Source: Microlunatus soli
GTDB taxonomy: Bacteria > Actinomycetota > Actinomycetes > Propionibacteriales > Propionibacteriaceae
DNA: 64,000 nucleotides
Assembly (NCBI RefSeq): GCF_900105385.1
Contig: NZ_LT629772.1
Coordinates: forward strand, 124,001-188,000
Direction: 5' to 3'
Of the stretch, positions 17,767 through 58,000 are shown piece after piece. The position numbers and the translations under genes were made by a program. A model generated the notes under the pieces. The model searched no databases. It was not told the origin of the DNA and worked only from the letters and a program-made list of their open reading frames with translations. Position 1 is the stretch's first letter. Every line of letters begins with the position of its first letter.

Positions 17767-19068
17767 TCAGCTGCGGAACCGGTACTGCTGAAGAGACTCC
17801 GGGCGCATCTCGGTGCTCGCACCCGGCACGCTCGGTGCCAGGTAGCGCCCTGCACGGAACTCCAGTGGTTCCACGAAATGTTCGTGCAGATGGTCGACGT
17901 GTTCGATCATCCGCCCGTCCATCGACCCGGACACCGCCGCGTAGTCGAAGAACGAGAAATGCCGGACAGCCTGGCAGAGCCCGACGCCACCGCCGTGCGG
18001 ACACACCGGCAGTCCGAACCTGGCGGCCAGCAACAGGATCGCGATGTTCTCGTTCACTCCGGCGACCCGGGTCGCGTCGATCTGCACGATCTGCACGCCG
18101 CCGGCCTGCATCAACTGTTTGAAGATCACCCGATTGGCCGCGTGTTCGCCGGTTGCCACCGGCATCGGGGCCAGCGCCCTGGCAATAGCCGCATGGGCCA
18201 GCACGTCGTCGGGGTTGGTCGGCTCCTCGATCCAGGCGATGTCGTACGGCGCCAACTCGCGCATCCAGGTGATCGCATCGGCCGTACCCCAGCGCTGGTT
18301 GGCGTCCACCGCGATCCGGACGTCGGGGCCGACGGCGTCCCGGGCGATCTGCAGCCGGCGTTTGTCGTCGGACAGGTTGCCGCCGACCTTCAACTTGATC
18401 TGCGCGAACCCGTCGGCGACCGCTTCGCGGCACAGCTTGGCGAGTAGATCGTCGTCGTAGCCGAGCCAGCCGGGCCCGGTGGTGTAGCCGGGGTAGCCGA
18501 CCCGCTGCAGCTCGGCGATCCGCTCGGCCCGGCCCGGCTCGGCCGACGTCAGGATCGCCCGGGCGTCCTCGACGGTGAGCGCGTCGGTCAGATAGCGGAA
18601 GTCGACCAGGGACAGCAGCTCGTCCACGCTCAAGGTCGCCAGATGCAACCACAACGGCTGGCCGGCACGCTTGGCCCGCAGATCCCACAGCGCGTTGATC
18701 ACGGCGCCGATCGCCATGTGCACGACGCCCTTCTCCGGACCGAGCCAGCGCAACTGGGAATCATGCACGAGTCGGCGCCAGGTCTGCCCCATGTCGGACA
18801 ACAGCACATCGATGTCGGCACCGGCCAGCTGGGCGACCACCGATTCGATGGCCGCGACCTGGATGTCATTGCCCCGACCGATGGTGAACGTGAAGCCGTG
18901 TCCCGCCCCCTGATCGGTGTTGAGCCGCAGGTAGGCCGCGGAGTAGTCCGGATCAGGATTCATCGCGTCCGAACCGGCCAGGGTCTCGTGGGTCGGGAAG
19001 CGGACGTCGAAGGTCTCAGCGCTGATCGGGGTCGCTGGACGTTCGGTTGAGCTGCTGGGCACGGGCAC
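17767..19068 (-). CDS. L-fuconate dehydratase (enolase superfamily)
   Basis: A 433-residue Mg-dependent dehydratase that converts L-fuconate to 2-keto-3-deoxy-L-fuconate. The catalytic pattern matches the characterised Xanthomonas enzyme with a constant offset: KxK at 225/227 (QIKLKVGG), Asp255 and Asn257 (VDANQRW), Glu281 (IEEPT), Glu308 (GEHAANR) and His358 ([11 protein letters not shown]). The GTG start at 19068 has GGAAGG about 8 bases upstream. Upstream lie a divergent-side MDR oxidoreductase and galactokinase; on the other side is a symporter gene set. The rest of a fucose pathway is not in the window. Confidence 0.88.
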
Positions 19069-20226: not shown

Positions 20227-21396
20227 GTGGACCAAACCCAACGACTGATCCGGACCAGCACCCAACAGTTCGGCCACCGTCCGGCCGGTGTCTGGGCGGC
20301 GCCCGGCCGGGTCAATCTGATCGGCGAGCACACCGACTACAACGACGGCTTCGTGATGCCGTTCGCGTTGGCCGAGCAGACTCTGGTCGCGGCGACGCCG
20401 GTCGCCGGCGACGTGTGGACCGTGCACTCCAAGGACATGGCAGAGACCGTCACCTTCGGACCCGACGAGCTGGACGCCGGTCTGGACGGTTGGCAGGCCT
20501 ACGTCGCCGGCATCGTCTGGGCGTTGCGCGAGGCCGGCCATCCGGTCGCCGGCGCCGAGCTGACGATCTCCTCCACGGTCCCGGTCGCTGCCGGCCTGTC
20601 CTCTTCCGCGGCGCTGGAGTGCGCGGTCCTGATCGCACTGGTCGATCTCTACACCCTGGACATTCCGCCGCTGGAGCGGGCGATCCTGGCCCGCCGCTGC
20701 GAGAACGAGTTCGTCGGTGCTCCCACGGGGCTGATGGATCAGGCCGCCTCCACCCTGTGCACGGCCGACAACGCGTTGTTCCTGGACTGCCGGACGCACT
20801 CCTACCAGCAGGTGCCGCTGGATCTGCGGGCCGCCGGACTCGAGTTGCTGGTGATCGACACCAAGACACCGCACGCCCACGTCGACGGCGAGTACGCCGA
20901 GCGGCGCCGGACCTGTGAGAAGGCCGCCGCCCGGCTGGACGTGCCGGCTTTGCGCGATGTCGAGGACCTGGACGCGGCGCTGGCCGTGCTGCCCGACGAA
21001 CTGATGCGCAAACGGGTCCGCCACGTCGTCACCGAGGACGCCCGGGTGCTGCAGGCCCGCGAGGTCCTCGGCGACCAGAGCCGCAGCATGGCCGACCGAC
21101 TCGCCGCGCTGGCCCCGCTGCTGGATGCGTCGCACGCCTCGATGCGCGACGACTTCGAGATCACCGTGCCGACGGTCGATCTCGCCGTCCAGACCGCGCG
21201 GGCGGCCGGCGCGATCGGCGCCCGGATGACCGGCGGCGGATTCGGCGGCTGCGTGATCGCGCTGGTGCCCAGCGGAACCGGCGACCAGGTCGCCGGCGCG
21301 GTGAAGGCGGCGTTCGCCGAGGCCGGCTTCGGCGCCCCCGCGCACTTCCTGGCCTACCCTTCTGCCGGTGCCCGACGGCTCGAAGTGTCAAGCTGA
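20227..21396 (+). CDS. galK: Galactokinase
   Basis: A 389-residue GHMP kinase that phosphorylates D-galactose at C1 in the Leloir pathway. The galactokinase signature GRVNLIGEHTDYNDGFVMP, the ATP-binding PVAAGLSSSAALE and the C-terminal GARMTGGGFGGC are all present. GTG 20227 is chosen because AGGA lies 7 bases upstream; GTG 20221 is an alternative. galT and galE are not adjacent. An ABC amino-acid transporter follows 94 bases downstream on the same strand, probably in a separate unit. Confidence 0.93.
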   Translation: MDQTQRLIRTSTQQFGHRPAGVWAAPGRVNLIGEHTDYNDGFVMPFALAEQTLVAATPVAGDVWTVHSKDMAETVTFGPDELDAGLDGWQAYVAGIVWALREAGHPVAGAELTISSTVPVAAGLSSSAALECAVLIALVDLYTLDIPPLERAILARRCENEFVGAPTGLMDQAASTLCTADNALFLDCRTHSYQQVPLDLRAAGLELLVIDTKTPHAHVDGEYAERRRTCEKAAARLDVPALRDVEDLDAALAVLPDELMRKRVRHVVTEDARVLQAREVLGDQSRSMADRLAALAPLLDASHASMRDDFEITVPTVDLAVQTARAAGAIGARMTGGGFGGCVIALVPSGTGDQVAGAVKAAFAEAGFGAPAHFLAYPSAGARRLEVSS

Positions 21397-21490
21397 AACC
21401 TGAACGCAACACCGATCAAGGAAGGTAGTGCCGAGACCCGACACACCGCTCGTCGGACGACAGACCCCAGGGACGCAAGGGAGCAAGGCC

Positions 21491-22381
21491 GTGAAACCCA
21501 AATACCTGATCGGCGGCATCGTCGCCGCCGCGCTGGCCCTCACCAGCACCGCGTGTTCGAATTCGCTGAGTGGCGACAATGGCGACCAGGCCAGCTCGGC
21601 GCCGAGCGTCCAGGCCGATCAGAAACTGTTCGAGCGGCTGCCCGACGACATCAAGAAGGACAAGACGATCCTGGTCGGCACCGACGCCAGCTACGCGCCG
21701 AACGAGTTCACCGTCGGCAACGAGATCCAGGGCTTCGACATCGACGTGTTCAACGCGATCGCGGCGAAGCTCGGGGTCAAGGCCGAGTATCAGAACGCCA
21801 AGTTCGACACCATCATCCCGTCGGTCAGCAGCGGCAAGTTCGACGCCGGGATCTCCTCCTTCACCGTCAACGCGACCCGGGAGAAGCAGGTCAACATGAC
21901 CTCCTACTTCACCGCCGGCACCCAGTGGGCGGTCGCCGAGGGGAATCCGAAGAAGATCGATCCGGACAACGCCTGCGGCAAGACCGTCGCCGTCCAGACC
22001 GGCACCACCCAGGAACTGGACGACCTTCCGGTCCGGCAGAAGAAGTGCGGCGCGAACAAGATCAAGGTCCTGCACTTCGACGGCCAGGACACCGTGACCA
22101 CGACCGTGGTCTCCGGCCGTGCGGACGCGATGCTGGCCGACTCCCCCGTCGCGCAGTATGCGGCCAAGCAGCAGAAGGGCAAGATCCAGACCGTCGGCGA
22201 TGTGTACGCCACGGCGCCGTACGGGATCATCACGGCCAAGGACCAGACCGAGTACGCCCAGGTGATCGCCGACGCGTTCGCCGAGGTCCAGAAGGAGGGC
22301 GCGGTCAAGTCGGCGATGGCCAAGTGGGGCATCACCACCGGTGAGATCGACAACCCCACCGTCAATCCGTCCGTGAGCTGA
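21491..22381 (+). CDS. Amino-acid ABC transporter substrate-binding lipoprotein
   Basis: A 296-residue secreted binding protein of the polar amino-acid family (SBP_bac_3). It has a signal peptide (LIGGIVAAALALTS) with lipobox TSTAC/S, a serine/glycine-rich linker and then the typical two-lobe fold with VGTDASYAPNEF, GFDIDVFNAIAAKLG, AKFDTIIPSVSSGKFDAGISSFTVNATREKQ and FTAGTQW. GTG 21491 follows GGGAG. It is the first gene of a tightly spaced importer whose ATPase gene overlaps a GNAT gene. Substrate amino acid unknown. Confidence 0.9.
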   Translation: MKPKYLIGGIVAAALALTSTACSNSLSGDNGDQASSAPSVQADQKLFERLPDDIKKDKTILVGTDASYAPNEFTVGNEIQGFDIDVFNAIAAKLGVKAEYQNAKFDTIIPSVSSGKFDAGISSFTVNATREKQVNMTSYFTAGTQWAVAEGNPKKIDPDNACGKTVAVQTGTTQELDDLPVRQKKCGANKIKVLHFDGQDTVTTTVVSGRADAMLADSPVAQYAAKQQKGKIQTVGDVYATAPYGIITAKDQTEYAQVIADAFAEVQKEGAVKSAMAKWGITTGEIDNPTVNPSVS

Positions 22382-22383
22382 TC

Positions 22384-23379
22384 ATGACCGACGTGGTCAA
22401 GGACGACCCGGCCGGCGATCCCCCGGCGGGCTCCCAGGAGCGCCCGGGACTGATCGACGCGGTCCCGGTCAGGCACTACGGCACCTGGGTGATGGCGGTG
22501 ATCGTGATCATCGGCGCCCTGATGTTCGCCAACATGATCATCTTCAACCCGGCCTTCGACTGGCCCTTCGTGCTGGAGGTGATGAACCAGCAGACGGTGA
22601 TCAAGGGGTTGCTGATCGGCACCCTGCTGCTGACCCTGCTGACCATGATCGTCGGCATCCTCGGCGGTGTCGTGCTGGCGTTGATGCGGCTGTCCTCGAA
22701 CCCCATCCTGAAGGGTGTCGCCTGGGTCTACACCTGGGTCTTCCGGTCGATACCGCGGTATGTGCTGTTGGTCTTCCTGGGCGCCGGGATGGGGGCGATC
22801 TTCAAGGACGGGATCGCGCTCGGCGTCCCGTTCGACTGGAAGATCATCGAGCTCCTCGGGCTGCACGGTGACTGGCGGTTCGCCCACTTCGACGCCAACA
22901 CCCTGTTCGGCGGCTTCCTCGGAGCAGTCGTCGGGCTCGGAGCGTCGGAGGCGGCGTACATGTCGGAGATCGCGCGGTCGGGCATCCTCAGCGTCGACCA
23001 GGGCCAGCGCGAGGCCGCCCAGGCGTTGGGGATGAACAGCCGCAAGACCACCTGGCGGATCGTGCTTCCGCAGGCGATGCGGGTGATCGTGCCGCCCACC
23101 GGCAACGAGACGATCGCGATGATGAAGGACACCTCGTTGATCATCGGACTCGGCTCGCTGACCACCGAGCTCTTCTTCCAGGTGCAGAACATCGCCACCA
23201 GGACCTTCAACATCGTCCCGTCCTACCTGGCCGCGATCCTGTACTACCTGATCGTCACCAGCATTTTGATGATCGGCCAGGGCTATCTGGAACGGCGCTT
23301 CGGTCGTGGCTTCGGCAGTCGCGCGGCGTCGGCCAAGGATCAGGCCGCGATCGGGCTGCAGGCCGGAGGTGCACATTGA
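22384..23379 (+). CDS. Amino-acid ABC transporter permease
   Basis: A 331-residue inner-membrane permease of the HisMQ/GlnP type. It has an unusual hydrophilic N-terminal segment (about 30 residues) and one extra helix before the permease core. The coupling EAA loop is [29 protein letters not shown], and the end has [21 protein letters not shown] 22384 is two bases after the binding-protein stop. A single permease implies a homodimer. Confidence 0.92.
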
Positions 23380-24275
23380 GTACGACGCCGGCGGCGACGC
23401 CACTGGTCCGCGCCCTGAACGTGATCAAGACCTTCGGCGGGCACCAGGTCCTGCAGGGGGTGGACTTCGAGGTGCAACGCGGCGAGGTGGTCTGCCTGCT
23501 CGGCCCGAGCGGCTCGGGCAAGACCACCCTGCTCCGGCTGGTCAACCAACTGGAGACCCTGACCGGCGGCCGGATCTGGTTCGACGACGAGTTGCTCGGC
23601 TACGTCGAGCGCAACGGCAAGCTCTACGTCCGCAAGGATCGCGACATCGCCCGGCAGCGGGCCCGGATCGGGATGGTGTTCCAGCGGTTCAACCTGTTCC
23701 CGCACAAGACGGCGTTGGAGAACATCATCGAGGCGCCGCGGCAGGTCAAGGGGATGTCCAAGCGGGTGGCGACCGCAGAGGCCATCGAGTTGCTGGACCG
23801 GGTCGGCCTGGCCGACCGCGCGAATTTCTACCCCTCCCAGTTGTCCGGTGGCCAGCAGCAACGGGTGGCGATCGCCAGGGCGTTGGCGATGCGGCCGGAG
23901 TTGATGTTGTTCGACGAGCCGACGTCCGCGTTGGACCCCGAACTGGTCGGCGAGGTCCTCGGGGTGATGCGGGACCTGGCCGCCGACGGGATGACGATGA
24001 TCGTGGTCACCCATGAGATGGCGTTCGCCGGCGAGGTGGCCGACCGCGTCGTATTCATGGACGGCGGGGTCGTCGTCGAGCAGGGTGCGCCGGCGCAGGT
24101 GCTCGGCAACCCGCAGCACGACCGCACCAGGTCGTTCCTGCGCCGGGTCCGCCAGGAGGCCGATGCCGAAGCCCAGGCAGCCAATGCGCTGGCCGCGTTG
24201 CAGGAGGGCAAGTCCCCGAGCCGGCAGGCCTCGACCCGACCATCCCCGACGGAAGGCGTACCCGGTGACTCATGA
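23376..24275 (+). CDS. Amino-acid ABC transporter ATP-binding protein
   Basis: A 299-residue ATPase. Walker [11 protein letters not shown]-loop [16 protein letters not shown], signature [16 protein letters not shown], Walker [15 protein letters not shown] and switch His VTHEM are all intact. The start is TTG 23376 overlapping the permease stop, with GGAGG 7 bases upstream. A C-terminal tail of about 50 residues extends beyond the usual GlnQ length. Its end overlaps the GNAT gene, tying importer and acyltransferase together. Confidence 0.92.
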
Positions 24276-25041
24276 GGCGCACCAGCAGCCTGATTTTCGG
24301 ATCGTCACCCTGCACACGGCGGCGCAGCGTCAGCAGGCCGCGGAGCTGTATCGGTCGGTGTTCGGCTACGACCATCCGTCCTACGGGATCAATCCGCGGC
24401 TGCTGGCGGGCCTGATCGCCAACGGCGGTTCGGTGGTCGGGGCGCTGGACCACGAGGACCGGCTCGGCGGGTTCGCCTACGGGTTCCTCGGCACCGACGG
24501 CACCGAGACCTATCACTACTCCCAAGCGGCGGTTGTCGCTGCCGGGCATCAGAGTCGCGGGCTCGGCCGCCGGCTCAAGCTCGCTCAGCGCGACGTCGCT
24601 CTGGCCACCGGTATCAGCACCATGCGCTGGGCCTACGACCCGATCCTGACCCGCAACGCCCACTTCAATCTCGATGTGCTGGGTGCCCGTGGGGTGTCGT
24701 TCCATCCCGAGCTGTACGGCGAGCCCGGCAGCGACCGGATCATGATCAACTGGGACCTCAGCGTCGAACCCGGCCCGCACCGGGCTGCCGAGCCGTTGCC
24801 CCAGCCGGCGGCCCGGCCCGGCGCCGATGCCTGGGGCAAACCGATCACCGACGGCGATCGGATCCTGCTGCCGCTGCCCACCGACCTCACCGCCTTGCGG
24901 TCCCACGATCCGATCCGGGCGGCCGATCTGGCGATCACCCTCCGGCACACGCTGGTGACGATCTTCGGCGACGGCTACCAGGCCGTTTCCTGCTCCGCCG
25001 TCGGGCACACCGCCTACTACATCTTCCGGGCAGCTGCCTGA
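24265..25041 (+). CDS. GNAT superfamily acyltransferase (COG3375-like)
   Basis: A 258-residue acyltransferase. [33 protein letters not shown] and the acyl-CoA loop [22 protein letters not shown], then [24 protein letters not shown] and [10 protein letters not shown], match the predicted GNAT group found beside N-succinylamino-acid racemases. In Geobacillus-type pathways the GNAT acylates a D-amino acid for that racemase. GTG 24265 overlaps the end of the ATPase gene by 11 bases. The NSAR-type racemase gene lies 61 bases downstream. An amino-acid N-acyltransferase role is likely; the acyl donor is unknown. Confidence 0.82.
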
Positions 25042-25102
25042 CACGGGTACGGTCGAGTCCCGATATCCGGTTCCATCCCGACGACGAACGGAGAAGTTGA
25101 TC

Positions 25103-26212
25103 ATGCGGGTCGTGTCCGCGCGGATGCACCGGGTGCGACAGCAGCTGGTGCACGAGTTCCGTACCAGCTCACACCAGAAGAGTTATCTGGAGCACCTGCT
25201 GATCGAGTTGCACGATGCCGACGGCCGGGTCGGCTGGGGCGAGGTCGCCTCTCCCAGCGGGCCGTACTACTGCGCGGAGACCACCGACACCTGCTGGCAG
25301 ATCACCAGCCAATATCTGTTGCCCGCCCTGATCGGCACCGACTGGGAGCACCCCGAGCAGGCCGTCGAGAACTGGCGTCGGGTGCGCGGCAACGAGTTCG
25401 CCAAGTCCGGCGTCGACGCCGCGGTCTGGACGTTGTGGGCGGCCGCACAGGGGATGTCGCTGAGCGCGGCCCTCGGCGGTACCCGGCGCGAGGTCGTGGC
25501 CGGCGTCTCGCTGGGGATCGAGCCGACCATCGACGATCTGTTGGAACAGGTCAGGCTGCACACCGATGCGGGCTATCCGCGGGTCAAGCTCAAGATCGCA
25601 CCCGGCTGGGACGTCGAGCCGGTACAGGCGGTCCGCAAGGAGTTCGCCGATCTGGACCTGCACGTCGACGCCAACGGCGCCTACTCCGAATCGACCGAGC
25701 ACCTGGCCGCCCTGACCGCGTTGGACGACTACGGCCTGACCATGATCGAGCAGCCGTTCGCGCCCCGCAATCTGCTCGGCCATGCCCGGTTGCAGGCGAC
25801 GATCGACACCCCGATCTGCCTGGACGAGAGTGTCGAGACGGTGCACGACCTGGAGACCGCGATCGAACTGGGATCGCTGCGGGTGTTGAACATCAAGGTA
25901 TCCCGGATGGGCGGGCTGACCCCGGCCCGAGCAGCGCACGACCGGGCCGTCCAGGACGGTATCAAGGTCTGGTGCGGCGGGATGCACGAATTCGGCATCG
26001 GCCGGGCCGCCAATGTGGCGATCTCCAGCCTGCCCGGCTTCAGCCTGCCCTCCGACGTGTCCGCCTCCGCCAAGTACTACGCCCGTGACATCATCAGTCC
26101 CGAGGTGGTGGCCGATCGCGGCGTGGTCCGGGTCCCGACCGGTGCCGGACTGGGCCACGAGGTCGACACCGCACTGATCGCCGAGCACAGCATCGAGTCG
26201 ATCTCGTTCTGA
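25103..26212 (+). CDS. N-acyl/N-succinylamino-acid racemase-type enzyme (enolase superfamily, NSAR/OSBS group)
   Basis: A 369-residue Mg-dependent enzyme. All active-site residues are present: Lys162 and Lys164 (VKLKIAP), Asp189 (VDANGAY), Glu216 (MIEQPF), Asp241 (CLDESV) and Lys265 (NIKVSR). Arg268, three after the second Lys, corresponds to a position linked to racemase activity in NSAR studies, as I recall. No menaquinone genes are nearby, so o-succinylbenzoate synthase is less likely than racemisation of N-acylamino acids. ATG 25103 follows GGAGAAG. Neighbours are a GNAT acyltransferase and, downstream, an N-acyl-D-amino-acid deacylase. Confidence 0.82.
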   Translation: MRVVSARMHRVRQQLVHEFRTSSHQKSYLEHLLIELHDADGRVGWGEVASPSGPYYCAETTDTCWQITSQYLLPALIGTDWEHPEQAVENWRRVRGNEFAKSGVDAAVWTLWAAAQGMSLSAALGGTRREVVAGVSLGIEPTIDDLLEQVRLHTDAGYPRVKLKIAPGWDVEPVQAVRKEFADLDLHVDANGAYSESTEHLAALTALDDYGLTMIEQPFAPRNLLGHARLQATIDTPICLDESVETVHDLETAIELGSLRVLNIKVSRMGGLTPARAAHDRAVQDGIKVWCGGMHEFGIGRAANVAISSLPGFSLPSDVSASAKYYARDIISPEVVADRGVVRVPTGAGLGHEVDTALIAEHSIESISF

Positions 26213-26237
26213 TCATCAACTCCCGAGGAGCCCCGTC

Positions 26238-27719
26238 ATTCCCTCCGCCACGCCCGGGACCGAAAACACCGACCCAGAGGCCAAACAGACCGACACAGGG
26301 GCCGAGAAGACCGACCCGAGCAGTAACGCCTACGCCACCACGATCAGCCCGGCGCGGCAGCGGCTGTTGATCATCCTCGCTGCCGCCGGCCTGATTGCCT
26401 CGATCGTCGGCGGCATCGTCTCCGACGGCCCGACCCTGTGGGGGCTGCTGCCGATCGTGCTGTACGCGGTGCTCTGCCTGCTGGGCATGGACATCGTCGT
26501 CGGGACCGTGCTGTCGGTGCTGTCCGGGATCCTGATCGCCGGCCTCGGGCCGGTCGCGATCGGCGAACTGCTCGGTGATTCGCTGGCCGACTCGGTGACC
26601 ATGATCGGCTTGATCATCGTGCTCGGCGCAGGGGTCGGCGAGGTGCTCAGGATCACCGGCGTCGCGACCACCATCGTCCACGGCGTGCTGCGGCTGACCG
26701 GCGAACACAACCGCGCGGCGGTGTCCATCGGCGTGATGCTCGCCTGCCTGATCCTGGTCGGCAGTCTCGGCACCCTCGCCGGCGCGCTGGCGGTCGCCGC
26801 CCCGATCGTGCTGCCGATCACCGCCCGGCTCGGCTACACCCGGTCGGCAACCGCGGCGATGCTGTTCATCGGTGGCTGCGCCGGGCTGGCGTTGGCGCCG
26901 TTCGCCGGGTCGAACGTGGCGATCATGACCGCCGCTGAGGTCAACTACTTGACCTACCTGCTGCACGGTGCGCTGCCGATCGCGGTGCTGTCGATGATCC
27001 TCGGACCGTTCGTGGTCGCCTTCCTGCAGCGACGCACGACCGGCAGCGGCGACGACTACGACCTGAGCGAACTGGTCGCCGAGGGTTCCACACCCCCACG
27101 CAACGCCAAGGCTGCGACCACGGTGTTCGTCGTGGTGCTGCTCACCGCCGTGGTGTACGCGACGATCAGCAGCGCGACCACCAGCTTCCCGCTGGTCGCG
27201 CTGCCGGTGCTCGGTATCGCGACCGGACTGGCCGGACGGCTGTCCGCCCGGCAGATCGCCGAGGCGATGTATCGCGGCGGCGCGAAGTTGATCAGCATCC
27301 TGCTGCTGTTCTGGCTGCTCGCCGCACTGTTCGCGCTGATCGATCAGCTGGAGCCGTTCCAGGTGATCCTCGATCTGGTCGGTGATCAACTGGGATCGGT
27401 GTCGCCGTTCCTGGTGGCGGTACTGGTCGCGCTACTCGGTTGGGTCGGCGTACCCGGCGCGACCGCGGCCCAGGTCGTCCTGCTGGACAAGGTGTTCGGC
27501 GACCTGGCCTCCAGCGTCGGCGTCGGTTCGGGTGCCTGGGTCACCGTCCTGCTGTTTGCTTCCAAGGCCGACACCTACGGCCCGTTCCCGAACGCCAACA
27601 TGGTCGGCGCGATGGGACTGGCGCGGTCGAACAGTCTGCGCAACATGATCATCACCGGCTGGCTGCTGCTGGTGCCGGCCTGCCTGATGTACGCCGTCAT
27701 CCTGTTGATCACCACCTGA
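26238..27719 (+). CDS. Ion-transporter-superfamily permease (NhaC/GntP-like), probable ATT start
   Basis: An integral membrane protein with about 11-12 helices, e.g. LLPIVLYAVLCLLGMDIVVGTVLSVLSGILIAG, GSLGTLAGALAVAAPIVLPI and LLLFWLLAALFALIDQLE. The pattern resembles NhaC antiporters or GntP/LctP-type organic-acid carriers; which one is unclear. No ATG, GTG or TTG exists in frame before TTG 26367, which lies at the edge of the first helix. ATT 26238 has GAGGAG eight bases upstream and gives a 43-residue hydrophilic N-terminus, so I prefer it. Context between racemase and deacylase suggests transport of (N-acyl) amino acids. Confidence 0.7.
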   Translation: MPSATPGTENTDPEAKQTDTGAEKTDPSSNAYATTISPARQRLLIILAAAGLIASIVGGIVSDGPTLWGLLPIVLYAVLCLLGMDIVVGTVLSVLSGILIAGLGPVAIGELLGDSLADSVTMIGLIIVLGAGVGEVLRITGVATTIVHGVLRLTGEHNRAAVSIGVMLACLILVGSLGTLAGALAVAAPIVLPITARLGYTRSATAAMLFIGGCAGLALAPFAGSNVAIMTAAEVNYLTYLLHGALPIAVLSMILGPFVVAFLQRRTTGSGDDYDLSELVAEGSTPPRNAKAATTVFVVVLLTAVVYATISSATTSFPLVALPVLGIATGLAGRLSARQIAEAMYRGGAKLISILLLFWLLAALFALIDQLEPFQVILDLVGDQLGSVSPFLVAVLVALLGWVGVPGATAAQVVLLDKVFGDLASSVGVGSGAWVTVLLFASKADTYGPFPNANMVGAMGLARSNSLRNMIITGWLLLVPACLMYAVILLITT

Positions 27720-27759
27720 CACCGCTGTTCGATCATGAATCCCGAGTTGAAGGAGCACT

Positions 27760-29367
27760 GTGGCTGAGTCCGTGTTGATCACCGACGGCGTCGTCGCGGA
27801 CGGCACCGGGACGGCACCACAGCCCGGTGGATTGTTGATCGAGGACGGGTTGATCACCGCCGTGCTGCCGCCGGACGCTCGGCTGCCCGCCGATCGGGTG
27901 ATCGCCGCCGGCGGCTCGATGATCACACCCGGCTTCATCGATCTGCACAGTCATGCCGACTTCACCATCCAGGGATCGCCCGGCGCGGTCTCGCAGCTGC
28001 ATCAGGGTGTCACGACACTGCTGACCGGCAACTGTGGGTTCTCCCCGTTCCCGGTGCTGGACAAGGATCGCCTGATCGGGGCCACGTCGTTCCTCAGCGC
28101 CGACGGTCTGGACTGGTCCTGGACCGATCCGGCGTCCTATGCCGAGGTCCACGACCGGACCGGTCTGGGCGTGAACCTCGCCCTTCAGGTCGGCCATAAC
28201 GCCCTCCGGCTGGCTGTGCTGGGCGAGGATCAGCGGGAGCCGACGCGGCCCGAGCTGGACCGGATGCGCCGGCTGCTCAGCGAGGCGGCCGGACAGGGCG
28301 TCTTCGGCTTCTCCACCGGTCTGATCTATGCGCCCGGCCGCTACGCCGACACCGCCGAGGTCGACGCGCTGGTCGCCGAGGCCGGGGCCAACGGCCTGCT
28401 GTACTCCACCCATGTCCGCAACGAGGGCGACGACCTGCTGCCGGCGATCGAGGAGGCGATCGGCGCCGCCCGGCGCGGTGGCGCCCGGCTGGAGATCTCG
28501 CATCTGAAGGCGGTCGGCCCGCGGAACTTCGGACGGGTCGTCGACGCGCTCGATCGGATCCAGCTCGCCCGCCAGGACGGGCTGGACGTCGGCTGCGATG
28601 TCTATCCCTACGACGCCTCCAGTACGACCCTGACCGCCCGGCTTCCTGGCTGGGCGATGGACGGCGGCGTACCGGCGCTGCTGGACCGGCTGGCCGATCC
28701 CGAGCAGCGGGCGCGGCTGGTCGCCGATCTGACCAGCGCCGAACGCGGCAGCCTGTCGGCCGATCGGGTGACGATCGCCTCCGGGACGGTGTTCGGCCGG
28801 ACCTTGGCCGCGATCGCGGCTGAGCGTGGCATCAGTTCGGCCGAGGCGACCTGCCAGGTGCTGCAGGAACAACACGGCGCGGTGAGCGTGATCAATCACG
28901 GGATGGACGCCCAGGATGTCGGCACCGTGCTGCGGCATCGCCTGACCGCGGTGGCCAGCGACGGCTGGATCATGGCCGGTCCGGACGATCCCGGCTGGCA
29001 GGTCGGCCACCCACATCCGCGCAATTTCGGAACCTTCACCCGGGTGCTGGGTCATTACACCCGCGAACGAGGTCTGCTCGATCTGGCCGAAGCCGTCCGG
29101 CGGATGACCTCGTTGCCGGCGAGCCGACTCGGGCTGACCGATCGCGGCGTGCTGCGCGCCGGTGCCGTCGCCGACGTGGCGGTGTTCGATGCCGCCGCGA
29201 TCGACGACCCGGCCGACTACGCCAACCCCTGGCAACTGTCCACCGGCGTCACCGACCTGCTGGTTGCCGGCACCCCGGTCCTGACCGACGGCACCCCGAC
29301 GGGCGCCCGCCCCGGCCGCGTCCTCCGCCGCCACCGCTCCCACAACCCCGGAGTCGGCCGAACCTAG
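27760..29367 (+). CDS. N-acyl-D-amino-acid deacylase (amidohydrolase family 3)
   Basis: A 535-residue zinc amidohydrolase that releases D-amino acids from N-acyl-D-amino acids. Metal and catalytic residues are visible: His63 and His65 (DLHSHAD), Cys92 (GNCGFSPFP), His218 (YSTHVRNE), His248 (EISHLK) and Asp401 (ASDGW). The loop STGLIYAPG and CDVYPYDASSTTL are typical of D-aminoacylases. GTG 27760 follows AAGGAG, 40 bases after the permease. Chain specificity (neutral, Asp or Glu side chains) cannot be read from the sequence. It completes a set of importer, N-acyltransferase, racemase and D-deacylase. Confidence 0.9.
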   Translation: MAESVLITDGVVADGTGTAPQPGGLLIEDGLITAVLPPDARLPADRVIAAGGSMITPGFIDLHSHADFTIQGSPGAVSQLHQGVTTLLTGNCGFSPFPVLDKDRLIGATSFLSADGLDWSWTDPASYAEVHDRTGLGVNLALQVGHNALRLAVLGEDQREPTRPELDRMRRLLSEAAGQGVFGFSTGLIYAPGRYADTAEVDALVAEAGANGLLYSTHVRNEGDDLLPAIEEAIGAARRGGARLEISHLKAVGPRNFGRVVDALDRIQLARQDGLDVGCDVYPYDASSTTLTARLPGWAMDGGVPALLDRLADPEQRARLVADLTSAERGSLSADRVTIASGTVFGRTLAAIAAERGISSAEATCQVLQEQHGAVSVINHGMDAQDVGTVLRHRLTAVASDGWIMAGPDDPGWQVGHPHPRNFGTFTRVLGHYTRERGLLDLAEAVRRMTSLPASRLGLTDRGVLRAGAVADVAVFDAAAIDDPADYANPWQLSTGVTDLLVAGTPVLTDGTPTGARPGRVLRRHRSHNPGVGRT

Positions 29368-29408
29368 TTGGCTGGCGCAGCTCCCTCCTGGCACCTTCGG
29401 TTCGCGAC

Positions 29409-29428
29409 TCATTATGTTGTTATGATGA
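29409..29428 (+). promoter_or_regulatory. Palindrome and -10 region at the gntR start
   Basis: TCATTATGTTGTTATGATGA is an imperfect palindrome (arms TCATTAT/ATGATGA, one mismatch). It contains TATGAT (29421-29426), a good -10 box. The transcript would begin at or next to the GTG start 29433, so the mRNA is probably leaderless and the regulator would block its own promoter. Confidence 0.55.
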
Positions 29429-29432
29429 GTTG

Positions 29433-30149
29433 GTGGAACCGCTCTATGCCCAGGTCGAGGCCGCGCTCGCCCGACGGATCGCCGACGACCTGCAACCCGG
29501 TGATCGATTGCCGTCGGAGAGCGAGCTGATGACCGTGTTCGGTGTCAGTCGGATCACCGTCCGTCGCGCGGTAGCCAACCTGGCGACCCGTGGTCTGGTC
29601 GACGTGATCCAGGGCCGCGGATCGTTCGTCGCCACACCTCGGATCGAACAGTCACTGCGGACCGTCAACGGCTTCGTCGAGGACATGACCGCTGCTGGTC
29701 TGGAGGCGACCGCACGACTGGTCACGAACGAGACGATCGCGGCGCCGCACGACGTCGCCGATGCCCTGCGACTCGAGGCGGGTACGCCGGTCACGTTCAT
29801 CGAGCGGATCAGGCTCGCGGCCGGCCGCCCGGTCTCCTTTGACGTCACCTACCTGCCGACCGACGTCGGTACGGCGATCGCGCGCGACGACCTCGAACGG
29901 CAGCCGATCTTCACCCTGCTGGAAGAGAAGTACGACCTGCCGCTGGTGGAGGCGGACTACCGCCTGCAAGCGGTGGCAGCGCCGGAACGGATCGCGGACG
30001 CACTGCAGGTGGCTGTCGGGGATCCGGTGATGCGGGTGGAACGCACCTCGCGCACAGCCGACGAACGCCCGATCGACCACGAGGTCCTGCACTACCGCGG
30101 CGACGCCGTCAGCTTCGCGACCCGGCTCGACCGCAGCCTGCCCGGGTGA
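29433..30149 (+). CDS. GntR family regulator, HutC/UTRA type
   Basis: A 238-residue regulator. The winged helix-turn-helix (LYAQVEAALARRIADDLQPGDRLPSESELMTVFGVSRITVRRAVANLATRGLVDVIQGRGSFVA) is followed by a UTRA ligand domain (about 85-235) with LRLEAGTPVTFIERIRLAAGRPVSFDVTYLP. No ribosome binding site is visible; GTG 29433 (or TTG 29430) probably starts a leaderless mRNA. It lies 65 bases after the deacylase gene and overlaps a TauE exporter gene. It likely controls one or both flanking units. Confidence 0.88.
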   Translation: MEPLYAQVEAALARRIADDLQPGDRLPSESELMTVFGVSRITVRRAVANLATRGLVDVIQGRGSFVATPRIEQSLRTVNGFVEDMTAAGLEATARLVTNETIAAPHDVADALRLEAGTPVTFIERIRLAAGRPVSFDVTYLPTDVGTAIARDDLERQPIFTLLEEKYDLPLVEADYRLQAVAAPERIADALQVAVGDPVMRVERTSRTADERPIDHEVLHYRGDAVSFATRLDRSLPG

Positions 30150-30973
30150 CCGCACTGGATGCCGGCGCCCTGCTGGCCGCGGCCGCGGTGGCCGGCGCGC
30201 TGGGTGGCGCGTTGGGCATGGCGGGTGGGGTCTTCATCGTCCCGCTGCTGACCACGGTCGCCCACCTGCCCTGGCCGTCGGCCGTCGCGATCAGCCTGGT
30301 GGCCGTGGTGGCCAGTTCCTGCGCCGCAACACCGGCCTTCCTGACCGCCGGCCTGCCGAATCTGCGGCTGGCCGTGCTGCTCGAGGTGCCGACGGTCGGC
30401 GGCGCGATCGCCGGCGTGCTGCTCGCCGATCGACTGCCGACCCGGCTGCTGTACGGCGTCTTCGCCCTGGTGCTGCTCGTCTCCGCCGTACAACTGGCCC
30501 GTGGCAGACGCACCGCCCCGGTGACCGCGCCGGACACCAAGCCGAACGGCTGGCGGCTGGACGGCAGCGTTCGGGACGGCGATGTCAGCCTGCCCTACCG
30601 GGTCAGCCGAGTGCCGGTGGGGCTCGGCGCGATGTTCGGCGCCGGTCTGCTGTCCTCGATGCTGGGCATCGGTTCCGGGGTGCTGAAGATCCCGGCGATG
30701 GACGGTGCCCTCCGACTCCCGATCAAGGTCTCCTCGGCGACCGCCAGCCTGATGATCGGCGTCACGGCGGCCGGGACGGCGGCCGCGGCCGTGCTGCAGG
30801 ACGGCGTCGACCTGAGCTACGCGGTGCCGGTGGTGTTGGGGTCGGTGCTCGGCTCGACGATCGGCGCGCGGGTCCTGGTCCGGATCCCGAACGGGCCGCT
30901 CCGCGTCCTGTTCTTCCTTGTCCTGTTGGGATTGGCGGTGCCGATGATCATGAACGCGGTCGGCGCACGATGA
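30146..30973 (+). CDS. TauE/SafE family membrane permease
   Basis: A 275-residue membrane protein with about eight helices. GGALGMAGGVFIVPLL at the start and GLLSSMLGIGSGVLKIPAM in the second half are the duplicated TauE/SafE repeats. Family members export or import sulfonates, sulfite or other organic anions. The GTG overlaps the gntR stop (GTGA) and its own stop overlaps the next ATG (ATGA). It is thus a gntR-tauE-DUF1634 operon. The cargo may be an acid produced by the amino-acid pathway (inference). Confidence 0.88.
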   Translation: MTALDAGALLAAAAVAGALGGALGMAGGVFIVPLLTTVAHLPWPSAVAISLVAVVASSCAATPAFLTAGLPNLRLAVLLEVPTVGGAIAGVLLADRLPTRLLYGVFALVLLVSAVQLARGRRTAPVTAPDTKPNGWRLDGSVRDGDVSLPYRVSRVPVGLGAMFGAGLLSSMLGIGSGVLKIPAMDGALRLPIKVSSATASLMIGVTAAGTAAAAVLQDGVDLSYAVPVVLGSVLGSTIGARVLVRIPNGPLRVLFFLVLLGLAVPMIMNAVGAR

Positions 30974-31305
30974 GTGATTCGCAGATCGGACAGCGAGGCG
31001 ATCGGGACGCGCTCGACCACCGGGATCGTCGCAACGCCGGCCGGCTCGGACTGGTGCTCCGCTGCGGCACGGTGGCCGCAGTCGTCGTGATCATCATCGG
31101 CACGTTCGCCGTCCCGCTCGGCGCAGCAAGCACCGGGCGATGGCTGCAACGTGCCGGGATGATGATCATGGTCGGCACCCCGGTCGGTGGCCTGATCAGC
31201 CTTGCGATCGGCTTCCGAACCGCCGGCACCCGCCGCTACCTGATCCTGATCGCCGTCATCCTGGCCCTGATCGCCCTCACCGCAACCGGAGTCGTCCGGA
31301 CGTAG
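30970..31305 (+). CDS. DUF1634 membrane protein
   Basis: A 111-residue protein with three predicted helices (LVLRCGTVAAVVVIIIGTFAVPLG, MMIMVGTPVGGLISLAIGF, YLILIAVILALIALTATGV). It matches DUF1634, a family that nearly always accompanies a TauE/SafE gene and probably acts as its partner subunit. It is coupled by ATGA to the tauE-like gene. Confidence 0.85.
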   Translation: MSDSQIGQRGDRDALDHRDRRNAGRLGLVLRCGTVAAVVVIIIGTFAVPLGAASTGRWLQRAGMMIMVGTPVGGLISLAIGFRTAGTRRYLILIAVILALIALTATGVVRT

Positions 31306-31353
31306 TCGTGCTGGGCGGCGACGACGTCCCGGCCGCTGCGCGGCGGCTGGACA

Positions 31354-31809
31354 CTATTCGCCGGGGAGGCGGCGGCCTTCGGTGAAGGCGGCGCTGGAGG
31401 CGGGCAGGAACAGGCAGACCAGCACCGCCGCCGCGGAGACGAACAGGGCTGCAGCCAACCAGCCGATACTGTCCCGGAAACCCCACGCCAGCGGCAGATG
31501 GAGCAGTTGCAGAGCGACCGCGGGACCACGGGACCAGGGTCGTACCAGGGCCACTCCACGGCCGACCACCGCGAGCGCCACACCCCAGACGATCAACATG
31601 CCGGCTACCCCGTAGCCGACACCGGCCGACACGTTCTGCAGGTTGACGATGATCAGCAGCCCGTAGCCGACGACCGCGATCGCCTCCAGCCAGAGCACGA
31701 TCGCTGCGGCCCACAGAGCCGGCCGTGCCGTCCGGGCCGCGGCCGAGCCTCCGGTTCGGGTGCCGCCGGTCTCGTCCGAAGGATCGGGACTCTTGTCGGG
31801 TTGCCTCAC
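31354..31809 (-). CDS. Hypothetical four-helix membrane protein
   Basis: A protein of about 151 residues with a Ser/Thr/Gly-rich hydrophilic N-terminus (some 30 residues). About four predicted helices follow: ALWAAAIVLWLEAIAVVGYGLLIIV, GVGYGVAGMLIVWGVALAVVG, LQLLHLPLAWGF and GWLAAALFVSAAAVLVCLFLPA. No family was recognised. GTG 31809 is a reasonable start, but no strong ribosome binding site precedes it. It converges with the DUF1634 gene. Confidence 0.6.
   Translation of the reverse strand: MRQPDKSPDPSDETGGTRTGGSAAARTARPALWAAAIVLWLEAIAVVGYGLLIIVNLQNVSAGVGYGVAGMLIVWGVALAVVGRGVALVRPWSRGPAVALQLLHLPLAWGFRDSIGWLAAALFVSAAAVLVCLFLPASSAAFTEGRRLPGE

Positions 31810-56854: not shown

Positions 56855-58000
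<1,146 letters not shown>

Follow-up and report, generated by a model that had tools for sequence, protein, structure and literature searches.

A putative D-amino acid salvage locus of Microlunatus soli that looks like a rearranged member of an actinobacterial gene module

Introduction

The conversion of D- into L-amino acids by an N-acyltransferase of the GNAT family, an N-succinylamino acid racemase (NSAR) and an L-deacylase is the already described Geobacillus route, and the third enzyme of the Geobacillus kaustophilus pathway is reportedly an L-desuccinylase. According to Sakai et al. (2006), as cited in PMC8762209, the GNAT acylates aromatic D-amino acids, and the title of that work describes the D- to L-amino acid conversion as irreversible. 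Here we describe a locus of the actinobacterium Microlunatus soli contained in a 64,000-nucleotide stretch of contig NZ_LT629772.1 (positions 124,001 to 188,000; assembly GCF_900105385.1), hereafter the window, in whose numbering the positions are given. At 21491-29367, genes for an ABC importer, a GNAT, an NSAR-type racemase, a permease and a D-aminoacylase-type deacylase follow one another head to tail on one strand, as found in the list of open reading frames (ORFs) and by profile searches (Table 1). GNAT, NSAR and a hydrolase of the M20 family do not occur together at this locus as in the Geobacillus type; an M20 gene is present elsewhere in the genome. The locus appears to be a rearranged form of an actinobacterial module that has been little studied, and not a pathway that makes D-amino acids; it probably serves the catabolic salvage of D-amino acids, with the deacylase as entry step and GNAT, NSAR and M20 converting D- to L-forms.

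Results

Conservation of the gene set in related loci

The linkage of GNAT, racemase and deacylase recurs in relatives. The comparison comprised the best 80 of 243 related actinobacterial loci, drawn with six peptide patterns and scanned with hidden Markov models built from their own gene clusters; upstream genes were counted in the 76 loci with at least 3 kb on that side (four left out) and downstream genes in the 73 with at least 3.5 kb (seven left out). These loci are not independent, because 24 of the 80 belong to Kribbella (15) or Nesterenkonia (9). The racemase has GNAT as a neighbour in 75/76 loci, and 63/76 have a divergent M20 hydrolase; in L061 and L069 a different M20 is found immediately downstream. 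In addition, a SIS-domain gene separates GNAT from racemase in 63/76 loci as counted by script, or 64 after adding L027, whose ORF runs on. The SIS proteins (L018:7245-7997 and those of 63 further loci of L009-L088) lack the RpiR DNA-binding domain, and no Pfam helix-turn-helix (HTH) domain was found in the 11 scanned.

Downstream of the racemase, the D-deacylase was found in 30/73 loci and the permease in 19/73, and an M19 dipeptidase and a beta-lactamase-family hydrolase take that place in 13/73 loci each; both of these families include D-specific members. Among the 71 loci with both flanks, 29 carry the deacylase, and M20 accompanies it in 28 of them (divergent in 27, right after the deacylase in L061), L052 having none. 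The transporter genes vary among loci and the GNAT-NSAR pair stays; importers of the family-3 type recur yet vary, since one lies directly after the racemase in Cryobacterium (L070). A class IV aminotransferase stands beside 19/73 loci and was not used as evidence for D-specificity, as the one example scanned scored 254.3 against an aminodeoxychorismate-lyase cut-off of 253. Furthermore, in 57 genomes of the family, each of the five close M20s (E<1e-80) has a racemase of the window's clade (see below) within 3 kb. Among the racemases found in these genomes by full-length similarity, the six clade stretches besides the window have GNAT and SIS in 6/6 cases and divergent M20 in 5/6, the contig of the sixth ending early.

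The missing M20 gene and a second locus

Unlike most relatives, the window operon contains neither M20 nor SIS gene in its ORF list and profile search. When the M. soli genome was searched with a Kribbella M20, one close match (C1:1763465-1764517; 38% identity, E 1.2e-52), above the cut-offs of Peptidase_M20 and M20_dimer, and one marginal match (26%, E 5.5e-4) were obtained; no convincing SIS counterpart was found in this genome (best 25%, E 8.5e-5). The distance from the close M20 match is about 9 kb to a second GNAT-NSAR pair (racemase 42%) and 1.6 Mb to the window locus. This second locus (L091 and L092, C1:1752367-1764577) holds, on the same strand, the GNAT-NSAR pair, M20, a PRK09061-type amidohydrolase (548.9 bits, cut-off 340), a PucR-type regulator (HTH_30) and a peptidase (S9-type by eye), and some opposite-strand genes lie between M20 and GNAT-NSAR. 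In Microlunatus endophyticus, an M20 80% identical to that of M. soli is directly followed by a second-type GNAT (51%) and NSAR (75%).

The M. endophyticus counterpart of the window locus (L009) is syntenic on both sides, with only about 47 bp in place of window positions 21380-24302 (importer) and about 72 bp in place of 26197-31360 (permease to small protein). GNAT-NSAR is thus the shared pair, and each of the flanking blocks is either there or missing as a whole. In the racemase tree, the window and L009 sequences are sisters (support 100/100) and join 15 Kribbella loci (85/95), all of them with M20 and 13 with deacylase, a placement that fits a local loss of M20 in the window lineage. Eleven loci lack M20. 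Ten genomes were searched for the gene and, after exclusion of L061 and L069 (M20 beside the racemase) and L039 (local M20), 7/7 have one elsewhere, beyond the stretch that had been fetched (E<=2.6e-37). Among the three whose context was looked at, this M20 lies beside a second-type GNAT in L009 and L057, in L009 also beside a second-type NSAR, and beside neither in L052.

The racemase and its clade

The racemase, which probably starts at ATG 25103, scored 43.4 and 165.9 bits with MR_MLE_N and MR_MLE_C and 293.8 bits with TIGR01928 (curated cut-off 200.65), and it has the full catalytic set of K161, K163, D189, E214, D239 and K263 (1SJA numbering). Score and catalytic residues place it in the NSAR/o-succinylbenzoate synthase (OSBS) group, with predicted NSAR activity. 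K163, K263, D189, E214 and D239 are kept in all 81 clade rows (the window and 80 loci). Arg266 is also present in the window enzyme; a 2021 paper by Truong et al. is said, from its title, to concern the role of this residue. The gene was rejected as the menaquinone OSBS because the genome holds a separate actinobacterial OSBS of that type (402.3 bits, cut-off 288).

The active-site pocket, with its polar lid (H24, K26, H31, H293, F295 and Y323), sets this clade apart. S23, H24, K26, H31, L136, S265, H293, F295 and Y323 are invariant in the 81 rows; the corresponding residues of 1SJA are F, G, Q, L, V, G, I, T and F. The window enzyme has K26, P50, H293 and Y323 where 1SJA, a characterised Amycolatopsis NSAR, has Q, M, I and F. 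Because of this difference we call the enzyme NSAR-type and not a proven NSAR, and it may act on a substrate other than that of known NSARs. The invariance across the 81 rows partly stems from selection, since three of the six peptide patterns with which the loci were drawn (HQKSYLEH, WCGGMHEF and KYYARDII) include lid residues. In the 57-genome sample, the lid pattern occurs in 7/7 clade rows (window included; three of the rows appear to be L042, L050 and L056 again), and H24, K26, H31, H293 and F295 occur in 0/7 non-clade rows, Y323 in three and S265 in two, a count that leaves out a second row of L119 (a 59-bit fragment). According to the tree, the window racemase and its 80 relatives stand apart from 1SJA and from the second racemase of the same genome (support 100/100).

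The deacylase and the GNAT

The deacylase matched the D-aminoacylase structures 3gip (E 3.8e-73) and 1m7j (E 8.6e-68). Residues were compared, in an alignment of 30 sequences, with criteria that separate D-aminoacylases from the GlcNAc1A deacetylase OngB, taken from an excerpt of PMC12017989. The metal-site residues C92, H218 and H248 and the catalytic D401 occur in 30/30 sequences, as in subtype V, and the substrate-site residues K250, Y190, Y282 (29/30), S288, T289 and R421 are present. Thr289 is as in D-aminoacylases and not the Ser of OngB (Ser292), and Leu295 occupies the position that is Leu298 in the hydrophobic-selective Alcaligenes faecalis enzyme, the N-acetyl-D-Glu enzyme having Arg295 there. 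The position of Leu116 (PpOngB numbering) falls into a part of the alignment that has insertions. On the whole, the residues are those of a D-aminoacylase; the exception is Trp403, found in 29/30 sequences including the window, where the aligned Leu of 3gip, 9g5m and 1m7j lines the acetamido group. Since Trp replaces this Leu, the enzyme is referred to as D-aminoacylase-type, outside the AfDam and BbDam groups, and Trp403 may reflect a different acyl preference.

The first codon of the GNAT gene, GTG at 24265, lies within the ATPase gene, so that the two overlap by 11 nt up to the ATPase stop (24275). Its product scored 20.6 bits with Acetyltransf_1 (cut-off 20.7), and the best hit of a PDB sequence search had E 0.81; the AlphaFold model (pLDDT 93.1) matches solved GNATs, the best Foldseek hit being 2j8m (E 4.3e-8, probability 1.00).

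Transporters, regulator and other genes of the window

Table 1. Features of the Microlunatus soli locus (window positions).
Feature	Position	Strand	Evidence
Family-3 (polar amino acid type) ABC substrate-binding protein	21491..22381	+	SBP_bac_3 104.8 bits
ABC importer membrane subunit	22384..23379	+	BPD_transp_1 81.3 bits
ABC importer ATPase	23376..24275	+	ABC_tran 125.2 bits; overlaps neighbours by 4 and 11 nt
GNAT N-acyltransferase, predicted D-amino acid acylation	24265..25041	+	AlphaFold fold match; racemase adjacency in relatives
NSAR-type racemase, enolase superfamily, distinct-lid clade (S23 H24 K26 H31 H293 F295 Y323)	25103..26212	+	
NhaC/DcuC-type permease	26238..27719	+	Pfam Na_H_antiporter and DcuC above cut-off; start region; N-termini of relatives
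D-aminoacylase-type deacylase (Amidohydro_3, subtype V metal site), proposed entry enzyme	27760..29367	+	Amidohydro_3 111.9 bits; structure matches; residues
Inverted repeat ACTCATTAT-GTTGTT-ATGATGAGT, 8/9 pairs, candidate operator at GntR start	29407..29430	.	
GntR/HutC-type regulator (UTRA ligand domain)	29430..30149	+	GntR 68.8, UTRA 129.4 bits
TauE/SafE-type transporter	30146..30973	+	TauE 147.4 bits
Small protein overlapping TauE	30970..31305	+	no Pfam family at E<=0.001

The importer membrane subunit is closest to NCBIfam models of amino-acid and ectoine permeases, under their cut-offs. Within NCBIfam, the substrate-binding protein is matched best by part of the StpK7 kinase model (NF052427, positions 339-599), at 219.7 bits against a cut-off of 900. 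The permease scored 32.2 bits with Na_H_antiporter and 24.7 bits with DcuC, each above cut-off. Its frame is open 5' of the first canonical start (TTG 26367), the N-termini of relatives resemble that upstream part, and ATT 26238 sits 7 nt past GAGGAG (26225-26230); the start is probably this rare ATT codon.

The inverted repeat at the GntR start is the sole match in the window to the pattern derived from it, with 0 mismatches (scan at up to 3 mismatches; 0.71 chance matches expected), and the same scan gave no second copy of the palindrome in the window; it is possibly the putative operator of GntR itself. GntR, TauE and the small protein were rejected as part of the pathway, since the 80 related loci gave no match to TauE and no full-length match to GntR. 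A promoter and terminator scan returned 0 promoters and 3 terminator-like sites (2.3 expected). The window also contains two more enolase-superfamily genes, at 17767-19068 (-) and 56906-57922 (+); the product of the former resembles galactarate and arabinonate dehydratases, with scores below cut-offs.

The gene content agrees in part with what the initial annotation had read from the DNA letters and ORF translations, namely an ABC importer overlapping a GNAT, an NSAR/OSBS-group enzyme with all catalytic residues, a permease and a deacylase with a complete metal site. Its GntR and TauE assignments also stand; DUF1634, proposed for the small protein, is not confirmed by the Pfam search.

Discussion

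Our data point to a catabolic route in which the permease and/or the ABC importer would import D-amino acids, either N-acylated or free, and the D-aminoacylase would strip the foreign acyl group and free the D-amino acid, acting at the entry and not at the exit. The GNAT would then add an acyl group of its own (succinyl or acetyl, from CoA), the racemase would convert the N-acyl-D- into the N-acyl-L-form and an L-specific M20 hydrolase, supplied by the second locus 1.6 Mb away, would free the L-amino acid; the activities and substrates, like the direction of flux, are all predictions here. Such an entry model needs a deacylase whose acyl preference differs from that of the GNAT, because cleavage of the GNAT's own product would be a futile cycle. 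Salvage of N-acyl-D-amino acids was one of two directions considered in the initial annotation, which had also named a lack of linkage among GNAT, racemase and deacylase in relatives as a possible refutation; the linkage described above speaks for salvage.

Several observations weigh against this salvage route. M20 is absent from the locus itself. The acyl group that the GNAT adds could be removed again by a D-deacylase present in the cell, unless the two enzymes prefer different acyl groups. None of the NCBIfam cut-offs shown is reached by the M. soli or the Kribbella M20, the best model being glutamate carboxypeptidase for the former (224.9 against 349) and "hydrolase" for the latter. The racemase clade is, by alignment, different from characterised NSARs at pocket positions. 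Importer, permease and deacylase may be dispensable or added, as L009 has GNAT-NSAR only. Second-type racemases of the family have a GNAT beside them in 6/7 stretches and an M20 of the clade type in 1/7, with two weak matches (48-49 bits). Lastly, two of the four family genomes with a close deacylase have no clade racemase.

The opposite direction, from L-amino acids acylated by the GNAT through N-acyl-D-forms made by the racemase to D-amino acids freed by the D-deacylase, which would replace the L-desuccinylase as last enzyme, had also been put forward in the initial annotation. In its favour, the D-deacylase is the only deacylase found at the window locus, and an NSAR and a D-acylase are run that way in an industrial amidohydrolase process (PMC7431475, excerpt). 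This route is doubtful because an L-specific deacylase beside a final D-deacylase is hard to explain, and M20 accompanies all but one of the 29 related deacylase loci and lies near the second GNAT-NSAR pair of M. soli; the absence of a nearby M20, suggested earlier as a search signature, holds among deacylase loci only for the window and L052. In this regard, one family genome (G011) has a DAO-family oxidoreductase gene (103.2 bits, cut-off 27.9), and not an NSAR, ahead of its permease and deacylase, no clade racemase having been found there, an arrangement that suits D-amino acid breakdown, and in another (G014) no partner gene was seen by eye beside permease and deacylase; both fit an entry cassette releasing D-amino acids. 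We therefore regard flux toward D-amino acids as very unlikely. The DAO-family gene of G011 (L101:4390-5541) looks internally duplicated and perhaps broken.

Salvage could also be more direct, imported N-acyl-D-amino acids being racemised as they are and cut by M20, with the deacylase reserved for acyl groups that the racemase refuses and the GNAT for free D-amino acids only. The racemase family includes characterised enzymes whose substrates are N-acetyl-methionine or N-succinyl-phenylglycine (PMC8142540, excerpt), and the transporters vary while GNAT-NSAR persists; the deacylase would be partly redundant in this scheme, which sequence cannot separate from salvage through the deacylase, and we consider it unlikely. 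A specialised operon, whose clade racemase acts on another substrate class (carboxylate-bearing acyl groups or side chains, such as plant N-malonyl-D-amino acids), appears quite unlikely. The basic lid argues for it, with H24, K26, H31 and H293 in 81/81 clade rows (1SJA: G, Q, L and I) and in 7/7 clade rows against 0/7 others in the family sample, as do the positions mutated in Amycolatopsis N-acylamino acid racemase (NAAAR) structures according to PDB titles (26, 50, 291, 293 and 323), the Trp of the deacylase in place of the acetamido-lining Leu of solved relatives, and the occurrence of N-malonyl-D-Phe and -D-Trp in living systems (PMC8762209, Table 2). On the other side, Leu295 of the deacylase is as in the hydrophobic-selective A. 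faecalis enzyme and not the Arg of the N-acetyl-D-Glu enzyme, the invariance in 81 rows comes partly from how the loci were found, and the idea draws on sequence and not on ligands. Tentatively, and as a rather unlikely extension of salvage, the system could be modular, with a core of GNAT (usually with a SIS protein resembling RpiR without its DNA-binding domain), M20 and basic-lid racemase (H24-x-K26/H31/H293), exchangeable entry cassettes (permease and D-aminoacylase, or M19 dipeptidase and beta-lactamase-family hydrolase) and, as natural substrate, an N-acyl-D-amino acid other than the N-succinyl form, for example a plant N-malonyl conjugate.

Salvage through the deacylase would place NSAR and D-acylase, both in use as biocatalysts, in a likely physiological setting, and it suggests how soil actinobacteria use D-amino acids and acyl conjugates. 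No natural NSAR and D-aminoacylase set is described among the literature matches listed (titles and beginnings of abstracts, subscription literature mostly outside), and the literature searched gave no description of an actinobacterial module with exchangeable cassettes, of the distinct racemase clade or of the rewired window locus.

Comparison with known systems

The window racemase differs from the N-acyl/N-succinylamino acid racemase of Amycolatopsis sp. T-1-60 (1SJA) at all of positions 23, 24, 26, 31, 293, 295 and 323, and its clade naturally has Tyr323, a laboratory change in Amycolatopsis NAAAR according to PDB titles. As in the D-aminoacylases of A. faecalis (1m7j) and Bordetella (3gip), the deacylase has the subtype V metal site and the substrate-site Lys, Tyr, Ser, Arg and Thr, with Leu295 as in A. 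faecalis; unlike them, it is about 50 residues longer, has Trp403 for Leu and is an operon partner of GNAT-NSAR. The industrial process mentioned above has the same NSAR and D-acylase tandem, but it is artificial and directed toward D-amino acids, and the excerpt of PMC7431475 mentions no GNAT.

Among plasmids, where the comparison covers three of 1061 matching records, those of Priestia and Lysinibacillus carry M20-GNAT-menC sets, that of Priestia with a full RpiR regulator including the HTH. The plasmid of Streptomyces sp. NBC_01243 (NZ_CP108492.1) has an amidohydrolase (Amidohydro_3), M20, GNAT and menC in a row, gene types shared with the window; unlike the window it has M20, its racemase is 43.8% identical to that of the window and its Amidohydro_3 score is 52.8 against 111.9 bits. 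Lastly, as in the G. kaustophilus route, the window GNAT adjoins an NSAR-type racemase, and M20 is present in most relatives and near the second GNAT-NSAR pair of M. soli; unlike that route, the window has no M20 at the locus and adds an amino-acid-type ABC importer, a permease, a D-aminoacylase and an altered racemase pocket.

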